Of a stretch of 64,000 nucleotides of DNA, positions 30,739 through 52,169 are shown piece after piece. The stretch spans positions 182,578 through 246,577 of the forward strand of contig NZ_BMLV01000005.1 in NCBI RefSeq assembly GCF_014645495.1, written 5' to 3'. Origin of the DNA: Cloacibacterium rupense. Lineage in GTDB: Bacteria > Bacteroidota > Bacteroidia > Flavobacteriales > Weeksellaceae. The position numbers and the translations under genes were made by a program. The notes beneath the pieces were generated by a model. That model did no database searches. It had not been told where the DNA came from and worked only from the letters and a program-made list of their open reading frames with translations. Every line of letters begins with the position of its first letter. The stretch's first letter is position 1.

Positions 30739-31752
30739 ATGAACTCTAGAACTCAACAGCTTTACGAAGCTCTTAATAAAAGAATTCTTGTGTTAGACGG
30801 AGCTATGGGAACCATGCTTCAGCGTTACAAATTTGAGGAGGAAGATTACCGTGGCGAAAGATTTAAAGATTGGAAATCTCCTGTAAAAGGTAATAATGAT
30901 TTGCTTTCTCTTACACAACCACGCGCTATAGCAGAAGTTCACAAAAAATATCTAGAAGCTGGTGCAGACATTATAGAAACCAACACATTTTCTGCAACTA
31001 CCATTGCAATGGCAGATTATCATATGGAAGAATTGGTCTATGACCTCAACTATGAATCTGCTAAAATTGCGAGAAAAGTTTGCGATGAGTTTACCGCTCT
31101 AAATCCTGAAAAACCGAGATTTGTTGCAGGTTCTATTGGTCCAACTAACAAGACAGCTTCTCTTTCGCCAGATGTTAATGATCCTGGTTATCGTGCGATT
31201 ACTTTCGATGAATTAAGAATTGCCTACAAACAACAATGCGAAGCATTGCTAGATGGTGGTGCAGATTTACTTTTGGTAGAAACTATTTTTGATACTTTAA
31301 ATGCAAAAGCCGCACTTTTTGCCATTGATGAAATTCAGGAAGAAAGAAATATAAAAATCCCAATTATGGTTTCTGGAACCATTACAGATGCTTCTGGAAG
31401 AACATTGAGCGGACAAACTGCGGAAGCATTTTTGGTTTCTGTTTCGCATCTTAATTTGTTGAGCGTTGGTTTTAATTGTGCTTTGGGTGCAAAACAATTA
31501 ACACCGTATTTAGAAACGATTTCTAATCAATCAGAATTTTTTGTCTCTGCTTATCCTAATGCAGGTTTACCAAATGCTTTTGGACATTATGATGAAACGC
31601 CAGAAGTTATGGCAGAACAAATCAGAGAATATGCAGAAAAAGGATTGATTAACATTATTGGTGGTTGTTGCGGAACTACACCAGACCACATAAAAGCAAT
31701 TGCAGAATTGGTGAAAAATTATCAACCAAGAAAAATCAATTTGGTTATTTGA
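30739..31752 (+). CDS. metH: Methionine synthase, homocysteine-binding half
   Basis: Homocysteine S-methyltransferase domain protein of 337 residues, equal to the N-terminal module of cobalamin-dependent MetH. Zinc ligands are visible in GFNCALG (around residue 247) and [10 protein letters not shown] (around residue 314); the GAMGT motif near the N-terminus is typical. The rest of MetH is the next gene, so the enzyme must work as two chains. Both are downstream of the SAM riboswitch, so high SAM should reduce expression. The protein ends cleanly after the domain, so this is a natural split and not a broken gene. Confidence 0.92.
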
Positions 31753-31789
31753 GGATGAGATAATGTGATAATTCACTCAAAACATTCCA

Positions 31790-31819
31790 AAATTACCTCA
31801 TTAGCAAATTACCTCATTA
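31790..31819. repeat. Tandem 14-bp repeat between the metH halves
   Basis: AAATTACCTCATTA occurs at 31790-31803 and again at 31806-31819. It fills the 72-base gap between the two methionine synthase genes together with a GATAATGTGATAATT-like segment. Confidence 0.7.
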
Positions 31820-31824
31820 AAAAT

Positions 31825-34479
31825 ATGAAATATTTAAAACTTTCAGGTCTAGAACCTTTAATTATAACTCCAGAATCCAATTTTATTAATGTTGGAGAGC
31901 GAACCAATGTTGCAGGCTCTAAGAAATTTCTTCGATTGATTAAAGAAGAAAAATTTTCCGAAGCATTGGATATTGCAAGACATCAAGTAGAAGGTGGCGC
32001 ACAAATTTTGGATGTTAACTTCGATGATGGATTGCTTGATGGAAAATACTGTATGGTTAAATTCCTTAATCTCATTGCTTCCGAACCCGATATTGCCAGA
32101 ATTCCGATTATGATAGATTCTTCAAAATGGGAAATTTTGGAAGCTGGTTTACAAGTAGTTCAAGGAAAATGCGTGGTCAATTCCATCAGTTTAAAAGGTG
32201 GAGAAGAAGAATTTATCAGACAAGCAAAAGCGATAAAAAGATACGGAGCTGCGGTAATTGTAATGGCTTTCGACGAAATCGGACAAGCTGATAATTACGA
32301 ACGTAGAATCGAAATTTGTAAAAGAAGTTACCAAATTTTGACAGAAATTGTAAAATTTCCTGCCGAAGATATTATTTTCGATTTGAATATTTTCCCAGTT
32401 GCTACAGGTATGGAAGAACACCGTAGAAACGCTTTAGATTTCATCAATGCAACAAAATGGGTTCGAGAAAACTTGCCTTACGTTTCGGTTTCGGGTGGCG
32501 TTTCTAATGTTTCTTTTTCATTTAGAGGAAATGATTCGGTGAGAGAAGCAATGCACTCGGTTTTCTTGTATCACGCCATTAAAAACGGAATGAATATGGG
32601 AATCGTAAATCCTGCAATGCTAGAAGTTTATGACGAGATTCCGAAAGAATTATTAGAATTGGTAGAAGATGTAATGCTTGACAGAAGAGACGATGCTACC
32701 GAAAGATTACTAGATTATTCCGAAAAACATAAGTCTGTAAAAAAAGAAATTGTAGAAAATCTAGAATGGAGAAATCTGCCTTTGCAAGATAGAATTACGC
32801 ATTCTTTGGTGAAAGGAATTGACCGTTTTATAGAAGAAGATGTAGAAGAAGCTCGAAAAGTCTCTGCAAAACCTTTAGATGTTATTGAAGGAAACTTAAT
32901 GACAGGAATGAGCGTTGTTGGAGATTTATTTGGAAGCGGAAAAATGTTTTTACCACAGGTAGTAAAATCTGCGAGAGTGATGAAAAAAGCGGTTGCTTAT
33001 CTTCAACCTTTCATTGAAGCTGAAAAAGATTCTGCTCAAAAAGCTAACGGAAAAGTATTAATGGCAACTGTAAAAGGCGATGTTCACGATATTGGTAAAA
33101 ATATTGTGAGCGTGGTTTTGGGTTGTAACAATTACGAAATTGTAGATTTAGGAGTGATGGTTCCTGCCGAAAAAATTATTCAAACTGCGATTGATGAAAA
33201 AGTAGATGTGATTGGTTTGAGTGGTTTAATTACGCCAAGTTTAGACGAAATGGTGCATATTGCCAATGAATTAGAACGCAGAAATTTAGATTTTCCGTTG
33301 ATGATTGGTGGTGCAACAACTTCTAAAGCGCACACTGCGGTAAAAATTGATCCAAAATATAAAAATGCGGTAATTCACGTAAACGATGCTTCCAGAGCAG
33401 TTGGAGTAGTGAGTTCTTTGTTGAGCAATAGAAATGCAGAATACGTTTCGGAATTGAAAACCGATTATGCAGATTTCCGTGAGAAATTTTTGAATAGACA
33501 AGTTGATAAAGAATATATTTCGATTGAAGAAGCGAGAAATAAGAAATTTAAGATTGATTGGGAAAACGAAGAAATTGTAAAACCGAAAAATTTAGGTGTT
33601 CAAATAATTGAAAATCAAAATTTAGAAGAATTAATTCCTTATATCGATTGGAGCCCGTTTTTTAGAAGTTGGGATTTATTTGGTAAATATCCACAAATTT
33701 TAAAAGATGAAGTGGTAGGCGAACAAGCAACTGAACTTTTTGCGGATGCTCAAAAAATGCTTCAAAAAATTGTAGATGAAAAACTTTTGACCGCAAAAGC
33801 AATTTTCGGGATTTTTCCTGCAAATTCTAATGAGCAAGATGATATTGAACTGAAAAATGGTGAAGAAACATTCACTTTCAGAACGCTTCGTCAACAACAC
33901 AAAAAATCGGAAGGTAAAGAATATTTAGCTTTGAGCGATTTTATTGCGCCTAAAACTTCAGGAAAGCAAGATTACATCGGTGTTTTTGCGGTGACAACAG
34001 GTTTTGGAACTGATGAATTGGCCCAACAATATGAAGCAGAACACGATGATTACAATGCCATTATGGTAAAAGCTATAGCAGATAGATTCGCAGAAGCTTT
34101 TGCAGAATTTTTGCACAAAAAAGTAAGAACGGAAATTTGGGCATATTCTAACGATGAAAATTTAGAAAACGACGATTTAATTGCAGAAAAATATGTAGGA
34201 ATTCGTCCTGCTCCTGGTTATCCTGCTTGTCCGGATCATTTGGAAAAAACCACAATTTGGGATTTACTAAAAGTGAAAGAAAATATTGGTTTAGAATTGA
34301 CGGACAGTTTGGCAATGTTTCCTACTGCTTCGGTTTCTGGGTATTATTTTGCCAATCCTAAAGCGAAATATTTTGGGGTAGGGAAAATTGCAGAAGACCA
34401 ATTGAAAGATTACGCCGAAAGAAAAAATATAGATTTAGAGTTCGCGAGAAAATGGCTGAGCCCGAATTTGGCGGATTAA
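31825..34479 (+). CDS. metH: Methionine synthase, folate, B12 and activation modules
   Basis: Protein of 884 residues holding the remaining three MetH modules: the pterin (methyl-THF) domain (about 1-310; [14 protein letters not shown]), the cobalamin domain (about 320-560) with DVHDIGKNI around residue 419 supplying the B12 lower ligand His, and the C-terminal AdoMet activation domain ([12 protein letters not shown] around residue 794). It transfers methyl from methyl-THF through cobalamin to homocysteine bound by the preceding protein. The ATG at 31825 is chosen because [12 protein letters not shown] is the domain start; a GTG 60 bases upstream would translate the repeat. Confidence 0.93.
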
Positions 34480-39262: not shown

Positions 39263-40312
39263 CTATCTGATGTTTGAATTTCTATAATTTCTCATCACAA
39301 AATTAAGCCCAGTTTCTAGGATTTCTCCCATTGTTTCGCATCTTTTAAACTGAGAATTATAGGTGAGTTTTAATAGTGAAGTCTTCAATTCTTCTACACT
39401 TTCTGGTTTAGAAATAGTATCTTTTTTCATAATAGCAATTAGATGTTCTAGTCTTCCATCTGTACTTGCTCTTTTGGCAATCGCAGAACGAACTTCTTTT
39501 TTGTATTGCTCTATAGAATTGGGTTTCAACTTTTCTTGCACCAATTCTACCATTTTTATGTTTTCTTTAAAATATTGAGGCAAATAAATTTTGAGATTCC
39601 CTTCATAACATTGTTGGTCAAAATCTATTGGGCGAATTCTATAAACCACCTGATCAAAATCGTGGGTAGGAATAATTACATAATTGTAAGAACGCATATC
39701 TCCCAAAAGCCCAATCATACAGCGCTCATTAAACTTTACAAATTCTTTAGCAATTTGTGCTTTTTCTAAAGGGTTGCAATTCTCTAAATGTTGATCTATA
39801 AATACATCTCCCGGAATTCCCAGAATATGTTCTTCGATTAAAGTATCTTTGTACAAAAGAAAATTTATACGATTAGGCGATAGAATTTCTTCTAATTCCA
39901 AACCATAAATTCTAGAAGCGTCTGCTTTTTTGATGTAAAAATTGGTGTAATTATCATTCAAGATATTTCTTACTCTAATTCTAAAAGGTTTAGAATTCCC
40001 AAACGTACAAAAGTGTATAGAATCTACTTTTAAGAACGGCAAAACATCTACATCTCCGTCTGAATGTAGTAAAGTATAAATTTTATTAAGGTTAGCTTCT
40101 ATCTCATCGTGTTCGAATTCTGGATAATAAACACTGAGCCAAAGCGTATCTTTCCCTTCTTTGTCAAGAACTGGCGTATAATCTGAAAAACGCAAAAGAT
40201 CATCGTAATAGAACCGAATATTAGTAAGACGATTATTTTTTTCTAAATAATCCATCAGTTCTTGATTGACAGGATACATCGGTTTTCTGAATTCTATTTT
40301 TACGTCTTTCAT
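39263..40312 (-). CDS. Conserved orphan protein with kinase-like catalytic motifs
   Basis: Soluble protein of 349 residues, no signal peptide, no family that I can name. Between residues 200 and 232 the sequence reads GLLGDMRSYNYVI then RPIDFDQQ. Asp205 and Asn210 have the five-residue spacing of the HRDxxxxN catalytic loop of protein kinases, and Asp230-Phe-Asp follows like the DFG metal site. Upstream, NFYIKKAD (Lys128/129) and an acidic helix GLELEEIL could match the ATP-binding Lys and helix C Glu. No clear glycine-rich loop is visible. A kinase or aminoglycoside phosphotransferase-like fold is inference only. Divergent in function from neighbours ruvC and desaturase. Confidence 0.8.
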   Translation of the reverse strand: MKDVKIEFRKPMYPVNQELMDYLEKNNRLTNIRFYYDDLLRFSDYTPVLDKEGKDTLWLSVYYPEFEHDEIEANLNKIYTLLHSDGDVDVLPFLKVDSIHFCTFGNSKPFRIRVRNILNDNYTNFYIKKADASRIYGLELEEILSPNRINFLLYKDTLIEEHILGIPGDVFIDQHLENCNPLEKAQIAKEFVKFNERCMIGLLGDMRSYNYVIIPTHDFDQVVYRIRPIDFDQQCYEGNLKIYLPQYFKENIKMVELVQEKLKPNSIEQYKKEVRSAIAKRASTDGRLEHLIAIMKKDTISKPESVEELKTSLLKLTYNSQFKRCETMGEILETGLNFVMRNYRNSNIR

Positions 40313-40331: not shown

Positions 40332-40339
40332 CAAAGATA
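40332..40339 (-). promoter_or_regulatory. -7 promoter element for the kinase-like orphan
   Basis: TATCTTTG on the minus strand, 19 bases before the start codon. Confidence 0.5.
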
Positions 40340-40356
40340 AGAAAGTCAAATCATAC

Positions 40357-40396
40357 AAAAAAACCGCCTCACATTAGCAAGACGGTTTTGATTTTT
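40357..40396 (-). terminator. Terminator of the desaturase gene
   Basis: AAAACCG (40360-40366) pairs with CGGTTTT (40383-40389), extended by two more pairs across a mismatch. A T run follows on the minus strand. It sits directly after the desaturase stop. Confidence 0.8.
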
Positions 40397-49824: not shown

Positions 49825-50601
49825 ATGAACAAACTTCTATCTCTTGTATTTTTTATTCTATCTTTTAAATTTTTTGGTCAAGAAACCCTCTCTGGCAAAG
49901 TAGTAACAGAACAATCTACAGAATTAAGTAGCGTTTTGGTTGTAAACATTACAACAGATGATAAAACCTATACCAACTCAGAAGGAAATTTTAAAATCCT
50001 TGCAAAAAAAGGAGACGAAATCCGTTTTTTAAAAGAAAAATATGACCGAGCATCTATTTCTGTTTTTTATGTAGATTTTCAAAAAAAATTAAAAATTATA
50101 TTAACCAAAACCCCAATAGAAATAAAAGAAGTACAGATAAAACCCAGACTTACTGGCAACTTAAACAAAGATTCTAAATCATTAAATAAAAGAAATAGAA
50201 ACCAAGAGCTGCAAAATGCAATCGGGCTTCCTCCACCGCCAGAAAAACCAAGAGAAAAACCAGCTGAAGTCGCCAGAGACATTTTACTTCCTATCATCAC
50301 AGGTAACCTAAACATACAAGCTATCTATGACGTAGCTTCTGGTAAAGCAAAAAGACAAAAAAGATTATACAAATACCAAGATTTACAAGAAAATATAGTT
50401 TGGGTAAGACAAAAAATAGAGGACGAATATTTTATTAACCTGGGCATTCCTAAAGAAGATATCAACAGTTTTATTGAATATTCATTTGCTAAAAATCCAT
50501 TTGCATTGCGCTATGCAAAGGCAGAAAACGTTTCAGGATTTCTCTTACAAATAGAAGAACCCGCCATTAGCTTTGTAAAAATTCTTCAACAAAAAAAATA
50601 A
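49825..50601 (+). CDS. Secreted protein with carboxypeptidase-regulatory-like domain (paralog B)
   Basis: Protein of 258 residues: signal peptide (1-18), beta-sandwich domain (about 20-95; KTYTNSEGNFKILAKKGDEIRF), a TGNLNKDSKSLNK linker motif and a helical tail with YDVASGKAKRQKRLYKYQ, closest to paralog A in that tail. First of three tandem plus-strand copies; the next begins 12 bases after its stop. Function unknown. Confidence 0.78.
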   Translation: MNKLLSLVFFILSFKFFGQETLSGKVVTEQSTELSSVLVVNITTDDKTYTNSEGNFKILAKKGDEIRFLKEKYDRASISVFYVDFQKKLKIILTKTPIEIKEVQIKPRLTGNLNKDSKSLNKRNRNQELQNAIGLPPPPEKPREKPAEVARDILLPIITGNLNIQAIYDVASGKAKRQKRLYKYQDLQENIVWVRQKIEDEYFINLGIPKEDINSFIEYSFAKNPFALRYAKAENVSGFLLQIEEPAISFVKILQQKK

Positions 50602-50613
50602 TAACCCTACGAT

Positions 50614-51399
50614 ATGAAACAACTTTTAATTTTCTTTTTCCTTTCCACTTTCACCAATTTATATTCTCAAGAATACATTTTCGGGAAGGTGACTTCTGAA
50701 CAAAACACCGAAATGGCAGGCGTTTTGGTCATTAACATAAAAACAGACGAAGAAACATACACCAATAAAGACGGGAATTTTATGATTGCTGCCAAAAGCA
50801 ATGACCTTTTGAGATTTGTAAAACAAAAATTCGATAGAGTTTCTTACACTATAAAACCTGAAGATTTTCAGAAAGCAATTACTATCAGCATGCAAAAATC
50901 TACTATTGAAATAGAAGAAGTAGAAATAAAAACAAAATTGACAGGAAACCTTGCAAAAGACTCGAAAGCTCTTAATAAAAGTGCAAAAACGCTAACTCTA
51001 AACCAAGAAATGGATTCTTACATGAGAATGAAACCAGAGAAACCATTTCCTACGCTTAGAACTCCGTCAGCTTTCGAAAAACCTAATGTTAATGCGGCGC
51101 AAGTAGACATTATAAAAGCTATAGGATTTATTACAAAACTAATTAAAGGAAATAAAAAACCAGAATTTAATCCTAATCAAAACACTATTAAAGGATTTTC
51201 AATGAGAGTTCGATATAATCTTACAGACCAATATTTTATAGAAATGGGATTAAAAATCGAAGAAATAGATGGTTTTCTGAAATATGCCGATAATAGATTT
51301 CAACTCACTAAAAATTATTACAACAACTTTAATTTGGCGAAGATTCAGCTTCAATTAGAAAGCGTTTTAGATGAATATAAAAAGAATCTAGTTTCATAA
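50614..51399 (+). CDS. Secreted protein with carboxypeptidase-regulatory-like domain (paralog C)
   Basis: Protein of 261 residues. Its signal peptide and beta-sandwich (about 1-105) are almost the same as in paralog D at both protein and DNA level (shared block GNFMIAAKSNDLLRFVKQKF), while the tails differ. It has the TGNLAKDSKALNK motif after the domain. Probably one transcript with paralogs B and D. Function unknown. Confidence 0.78.
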   Translation: MKQLLIFFFLSTFTNLYSQEYIFGKVTSEQNTEMAGVLVINIKTDEETYTNKDGNFMIAAKSNDLLRFVKQKFDRVSYTIKPEDFQKAITISMQKSTIEIEEVEIKTKLTGNLAKDSKALNKSAKTLTLNQEMDSYMRMKPEKPFPTLRTPSAFEKPNVNAAQVDIIKAIGFITKLIKGNKKPEFNPNQNTIKGFSMRVRYNLTDQYFIEMGLKIEEIDGFLKYADNRFQLTKNYYNNFNLAKIQLQLESVLDEYKKNLVS

Positions 51400-51437
51400 A
51401 AGTTAGCTCAGCCTAAAGGTTAAAAAAACAAATACCA

Positions 51438-52169
51438 ATGAGAAAATTATTGCTTCTTACTTTCTTTTTAATTTTCACCAATTCCTATTCTCAGGAATAT
51501 ATTTTTGGGAAGGTTATTTCTGAACAAAATGCTCAAATAGCAGGCGTTTTAATCATCAATATAAATACAGATGAAAAAACATACACTAACAATGAAGGCA
51601 ATTTTATGATTGCAGCCAAAAGCAACGACCTTTTGAGATTTGTGAAGCAAAAATTTGATAGAGTTTCTTATACCATAAAACCAGAAGATTTCCAAAAATC
51701 TCTCACCATCTATATGCAAAAATCTGCTATTGAAATAGAAGAAGTTGAACTAAAAAACAAATTGACGGGAAACCTTAAAGTTGACAATAATAAAGTTGAA
51801 AACAAGAAAAAATCTAAGCTAAATCTGGAAATAAGTAAAATGAATTTAGAAAATACAGATATTAGAATCCTTTTGCCTAATGCAGGAGAATTTAAACAAC
51901 CAAAAGGCGAAGGCTTCTCTATAGGCGCTATAAAAGACAGATGGGATGTTGTAGATATTAACGAAGGTTATTTGTATATTTTAGGAGAAAGTTATTTTGT
52001 TGAGGAATTAGGACTCAAAAAAGACGAAGTAGCACCTTTCATAGGCTACGTAATGCAAAGTTTGAAATTAAAAAACATCAAAAAGAAAGGGTTTTTCTAC
52101 AGTGAAGATATTGCAAAGTTTCAGGTATTGGCAGAAGAAAAAATCAAAACATTTAAAAAGTTAAAATAA
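51438..52169 (+). CDS. Secreted protein with carboxypeptidase-regulatory-like domain (paralog D)
   Basis: Protein of 243 residues. The first 110 residues nearly match paralog C; the C-terminal part (Lys-rich linker, then a segment around GFSIGAIKDRWDVVDINEGYL) matches the others only weakly. The abrupt change from near identity to little similarity suggests a recent partial duplication or gene conversion of the N-terminal domain. Function unknown. Confidence 0.78.
   Translation: MRKLLLLTFFLIFTNSYSQEYIFGKVISEQNAQIAGVLIININTDEKTYTNNEGNFMIAAKSNDLLRFVKQKFDRVSYTIKPEDFQKSLTIYMQKSAIEIEEVELKNKLTGNLKVDNNKVENKKKSKLNLEISKMNLENTDIRILLPNAGEFKQPKGEGFSIGAIKDRWDVVDINEGYLYILGESYFVEELGLKKDEVAPFIGYVMQSLKLKNIKKKGFFYSEDIAKFQVLAEEKIKTFKKLK

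Follow-up and report, generated by a model that had tools for sequence, protein, structure and literature searches.

The gene considered here, which is unannotated, lies on the reverse strand of the window, by which we mean the whole stretch of 64,000 nucleotides analysed from Cloacibacterium rupense (contig NZ_BMLV01000005.1, positions 182,578 to 246,577). The features that matter for its interpretation are the following, with coordinates counted from the first letter of the window.

39263..40312, (-), gene for a kinase-like protein of 349 aa with a predicted PI3K-type fold, ATG start, from the reading of the open reading frame
39617..39625, (-), D230-F-D232, predicted metal-binding motif at the DFG position, followed by the invariant Q233; 96/96 homologues
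39683..39703, (-), putative catalytic loop G204-D205-M-R-S-Y-N210; G204, D205 and N210 in 96/96 homologues
39827..39835, (-), codons of E160-E161-H162 at the end of strand 157-161, the hinge position; E160 and H162 invariant
39890..39898, (-), codons of E139-L-E141, acidic residues of helix 132-144, which corresponds to helix C, from the model and the alignment
39929..39931, (-), codon of K128, the predicted ATP-contacting lysine, on the last N-lobe strand before helix C; 96/96 homologues, placed by codon arithmetic
40332..40359, (-), candidate promoter TTTG-N16-TATCTTTG, with a short spacer, ending 19 bp before the ATG
40360..40389, (-), terminator-like hairpin and T run, separating the kinase-like gene from the desaturase gene upstream of it

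Downstream of the gene lies ruvC (PF02075, E 5.9e-41) and upstream a fatty-acid desaturase gene (PF00487, E 1.2e-35). An earlier sequence-only reading of this DNA had placed the gene between these two, which is correct for the window, but the arrangement is not conserved among relatives. Three terminator-like sites made of a hairpin and a T run were found in the region, against 1.1 expected, and the candidate promoter resembles TAnnTTTG, the consensus of Bacteroidota promoters. Together, the hairpin behind the desaturase gene and the TTTG element before the ATG point to a transcript start of its own, so that the kinase-like gene, judged from its sequence signals, is probably transcribed separately.

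Two other arrangements in the window deserve mention in their own right. On the forward strand at 49825-52169, three adjacent genes encode proteins of 243-261 aa that resemble one another and all begin with a signal-like stretch and a carboxypeptidase-regulatory-like domain, apparently the result of tandem duplication. At 30739-34479 on the same strand, a MetF-like gene follows two consecutive ORFs (337 and 884 aa) that have the look, by sequence, of a methionine synthase divided between two genes.

Comparison of the loci of family members revealed no same-strand neighbour kept across orders. Divergent ABC-transporter genes occur in 43 loci, 61-2859 bp from the kinase-like gene, a neighbourhood that we read as family synteny. 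Other neighbours are local, namely a lipoprotein-like gene in 19 loci and the gene of a bshA-like glycosyltransferase in 5. As no neighbour gene is kept across the family, the context does not point to a substrate.

The conservation of the protein was assessed on an alignment of 96 diverse homologues from across Bacteroidota, which are 39-80% identical to the window protein and among which 39 of the 349 positions are invariant. These include K128, D131, R134, G204, D205, N210, D230, F231 and D232, found in all 96 sequences, and further E160, H162, K189, R197, L202, L203, Q233, Y243, P245 and N251. The sequence-only reading had singled out D205-MRSY-N210, D230-F-D and K128-K129 as kinase motifs, all of which are present at those residues of the ORF, and had proposed the invariance of D205, N210 and D230 as a test of its claim; the three residues are the same in 96/96 homologues. 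Of the two lysines suggested as ATP ligands, K128 stands, but K129 does not, as this position is Lys in just 58 of the 96 homologues. The acidic helix expected after the lysine is likewise borne out, since helix 132-144 carries Glu or Asp throughout at both E139 (Glu in 92, Asp in 4) and E141 (Glu in 95, Asp in 1). The residues K128, D205, N210 and D230 were chosen from one sequence before any alignment was made, and the probability that four random picks would all be invariant (39/349) is about 1.6e-4; hence their invariance is not due to chance.

Three invariant residues, K128, D131 and R134, form a K-x-x-D-x-x-R motif. The loop that follows further on reads G-D-M-[R/H]-x-x-N in the family and D-M-R-S-Y-N in the window protein, with position 207 being Arg in 80 homologues, the window protein included, and His in the other 16. 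In the gene tree, the H207 members group together in one clade, where a single member has Arg instead, and their loop, G-D-M-H-[SA]-G-N, follows the DxHxxN pattern. The later motif is D-F-D, and not D-F-G, in every one of the 96 sequences.

These motifs fall at the appropriate places of a predicted two-lobed kinase fold. AlphaFold2 returned this fold, in ligand-free models, both for the window protein (96 sequences; pLDDT 93.8, pTM 0.90) and for a distant member 39% identical to it (59 sequences; pLDDT 92.8, pTM 0.89). The modelled N-lobe has its elements in kinase order, namely strands 94-102, 110-116 and 121-129, helix 132-144, and strands 151-154 and 157-161; after the hinge come helix 181-200, the loop 204-210, a long beta hairpin at 211-228, D230-F-D and a helical C-lobe. 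Two additional strands, together with helices (44-49, 55-62, 65-83), precede the ATP-binding strands and lie inside the span aligned in the structural comparison described next.

For the window model, Foldseek ranked ordinary protein kinases and pseudokinases first (E 3.0e-5), for the second member it placed Vps34 at rank 3, and against viral models it found distant kinases only. VIA-align, a second-look alignment restricted to the Foldseek candidates, gave as the best of the matches listed a Z of 13.8 over 274 residues at 4.5 Å for the window model and a Z of 14.3 over 280 residues at 4.2 Å for the second member. The 50 matches listed for each model are all PI3K, PI4K or PIKK structures, and entries for HipA, APH and LanM are absent from these lists of 50 per model. 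According to the guide for this tool, a Z below 8 (for helical bundles, below about 13) need not mean more than a common arrangement, and the values for this mixed alpha/beta protein are well above 8; the best Z of about 14 is nevertheless moderate, with an rmsd above 4 Å and an identity of 7-14% to the PI3K/PI4K/PIKK structures. The kinase-like fold, which had been put forward as a second test, is thus what the AlphaFold2 models and the Foldseek and VIA-align matches agree on.

Sequence libraries, on the other hand, do not recognise the family. The window protein has no match in Pfam at E<=10, APH/choline kinase (PF01636 and relatives) included, nor any in NCBIfam, PHROGs, PADLOC or, by sequence and profile searches, the PDB, in keeping with the earlier reading, which knew no named family for it. 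A Pfam scan of the 96 members listed 25 families, PF00454 not among them, and weak matches to Tudor, DUF892 and CFAP300, scattered over few members, were taken as chance. The PF00454 profile passed its cut-off in 0/148 genomes, and in the phylum it gave sub-threshold matches only, such as proteins that may be called, on our interpretation of their sequences, ABC1-like, and a HipA-like family of 267-301 aa. This second family, seen at L181, L182 and L184 in three genomes, is an observation apart: two of its carriers (G222, G226) lack the present kinase-like family and one (G260) has both.

The family alignment was also compared by hhalign with alignments of HipA, HipA-like, ABC1 and PI3K proteins, with reversed and shuffled controls, the PI3K, Vps34 and mTOR query strings having been checked letter by letter against PDB chains. 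The scores against HipA (30 proteins), HipA-like and ABC1 were at control level, and that against PI3K, 17.4, was not significant beside 14.4 +/- 2.3 for 100 column shuffles and 13.2 for the reversed alignment. The path with p110gamma, equally not significant, lays G204-D205..N210 onto GDRHNDN. A publication on this kinase-like family was not found in open-access PMC text. From the lack of matches in sequence libraries and the non-significant profile comparisons, it looks as if the family is new at the sequence level and the fold is what was already known; families that bridge it to known kinases may exist.

The same sequence-only reading had called the protein an orphan and the putative family one of Flavobacteriia, and both descriptions proved too narrow, as relatives occur in many genomes throughout Bacteroidota. 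A protein search found one in 51 of 148 genomes of its own taxonomic family; in the class, 85 of 247 genomes have a strong match, and in the phylum carriers number 68 of 247, so that some 28-35% of the sampled Bacteroidota genomes have the gene. Flavobacterium, Tenacibaculum, Chryseobacterium, Elizabethkingia and Leeuwenhoekiella are among the named carriers. In a neighbouring family of the same order, all 26 sampled genomes carry it. Profile scores in the phylum are above 400 bits or else at 18 bits and lower, with none between, and the family is therefore sharply bounded within Bacteroidota. COX1 is present in nearly all genomes, and the gene was found in 0/9 of those lacking COX1 (p=0.03, uncorrected for relatedness). 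Collections of phages, plasmids and viruses yielded no relatives.

Each genome with a strong match has one copy, with G375 as the sole exception, and the gene tree broadly follows taxonomy; the two facts together suggest mostly vertical descent. The second copy of G375 (L166:5977-7023, reverse strand) is very divergent, with 40% identity to the window protein and an end branch of about 3, yet it retains the core motifs and has possibly taken on a new specificity.

The reading of the protein as a kinase or phosphotransferase is supported by the fold and the invariant residues, from which we infer ATP binding and phosphotransfer. Both the two-lobed fold and the core residues are present, as judged from models and alignment, and place it in the protein-kinase-like (PKL) superfamily. 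We consider it likely that the protein is an active, cytoplasmic, single-domain ATP/Mg-dependent phosphotransferase of this superfamily, with lobes like those of PI3K, PI4K and PIKK. In such an enzyme, the ATP phosphates would be bound by K128 with the help of E139 or E141, the hinge would consist of E160-H162, D205 would be the catalytic-loop Asp and N210 the metal Asn, and D230 of D-F-D would serve as the second metal ligand. As to the substrate, our guess is that a protein or other macromolecule is likelier than an inositol lipid, because Q233, Y243, P245 and N251, in the region of the activation segment, are invariant in the phylum and because the gene does not co-occur with inositol synthesis. 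A bolder form of this proposal, which we regard as doubtful, sees in it a core, stand-alone protein kinase of PI3K/PIKK type that regulates some general process of the Bacteroidota cell. The fold, known from eukaryotic PI3K, PI4K and mTOR/ATM kinases, would then have an ancient branch in bacteria, in which Flavobacteriia use Arg where the catalytic loop otherwise has His.

The best of the competing explanations, to which we give a real chance though one short of even, is that the protein phosphorylates a small molecule or metabolite, using the fold as aminoglycoside and choline kinases do. Its single copy and mostly vertical inheritance would suit a metabolic enzyme, and the loop of the H207 clade resembles those of APH-type enzymes; against it speak the missing APH/choline-kinase match in Pfam, the structural matches listed, which are all PI3K/PI4K/PIKK, and the lack of a metabolic neighbour gene kept throughout.

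Kinase folds are also known to perform other chemistries. The departures of the family motif from the textbook at R207 and D232 would accord with AMPylation, with glutamylation or with a LanM-like phosphorylation of Ser/Thr followed by elimination. In the LanM enzyme CylM, the sequence does not resemble kinases and yet the fold is lipid-kinase-like, Asp347, His349 and Asn352 forming its DxHxxN motif (PMC4550811). We nevertheless find this unlikely, given that the canonical phosphotransfer residues, the catalytic Asp D205 included, are all invariant, that the ORF ends at 349 aa with no LanC-like cyclase domain, and that no peptide partner was recognised near the gene. A pseudokinase or ATP-binding scaffold, for which the replacement of the DxH His by Arg in most members could be adduced, is quite improbable; pseudokinases usually lack one of the Lys, the catalytic Asp or the metal ligands, and here the Lys, the catalytic Asp and both metal ligands are invariant across the phylum. 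That the protein is literally a PI3K-type phosphoinositide or lipid kinase has hardly any likelihood, even with Vps34/PI3K as the closest fold among the matches listed, and we rejected the inositol-lipid link, phosphorylation of such lipids being unlikely on indirect grounds, as no match to myo-inositol-1-phosphate synthase (PF07994) occurs in its own genome (G000) and the synthase shows no association with the gene in 247 class genomes (5/85 with the gene, 11/162 without it, p=1.0).

The favoured phosphotransferase reading would describe a single-copy gene whose kinase family seems to be undescribed and escapes the sequence libraries. If true, it would add to the PI3K/PIKK-like architecture a compact bacterial member, tractable for structure and mechanism, and would provide a candidate regulator in bacteria common in the environment and the clinic, such as Flavobacterium, Chryseobacterium and Elizabethkingia.

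Among known systems, the closest solved folds in the matches listed are those of PI3K, PI4K and PIKK (PF00454; Vps34, p110gamma, PI4KIIIbeta, mTOR, SMG1, ATM; Z about 14). The window family shares with them an N-lobe with extra strands and helices, the K-x-x-[DE]-x-x-R motif behind the final N-lobe strand (KHGDDLR in PI3K, KGHEDLR in mTOR), the I-D-F motif and a loop of the form G-D-x-[H/R]-x-x-N, which in the H207 clade is a GDMHxxN that matches the GDRHxxN of PI3K/PIKK. It differs from PI3K/PI4K in its stand-alone length of 349 aa, the absence of a PF00454 match and D-F-D instead of D-F-G, and from PI3K/PIKK in having Arg for the DxH His in 80/96 members. Since the Pfam profile and DFG are wanting, as is the DRH loop in most members, we do not file it as PI3K; nor is the catalytic loop by itself specific for PI3K, as G-D-x-H-x-G-N also resembles the loops of APH and ABC1.

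Like CylM, it is a bacterial protein whose lipid-kinase-like fold goes with no resemblance to kinases at the sequence level, and the H207 clade has the same DxHxxN, whereas the window protein has R207, no cyclase domain and no recognised peptide partner or RiPP context. HipA proteins (PF07804), found in 27/61 Bacteroidota genomes, are likewise bacterial Ser/Thr kinases with a kinase fold, but the window family has no Pfam match to them, a profile comparison at chance level and no recognised HipB-like partner, and is single-copy and not a mobile multi-copy module. Another novel kinase-like family with numerous members in Flavobacteriales is that of the kinase-methyltransferase Lani_1194, found in Legionella and Flavobacteriales (PMC9758233). 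In Lani_1194, Arg replaces the ATP Lys, a helix-C Glu cannot be identified and a methyltransferase domain is usually attached, whereas the window family keeps the Lys without exception, conserves E139/E141 and lacks a second domain.

Finally, a flavobacterial protein of 1243 aa is encoded near the kinase-like gene at L045:6969-10700 on the reverse strand, and its cluster occurs in 20 loci. It combines a calcineurin-like phosphoesterase with an outer-membrane ShlB-like barrel, and the unassigned region between the two contains the motifs GDWDRHYDQW and PRDRDQAF, which we take to resemble the loops of CotH/FAM20-type kinases.
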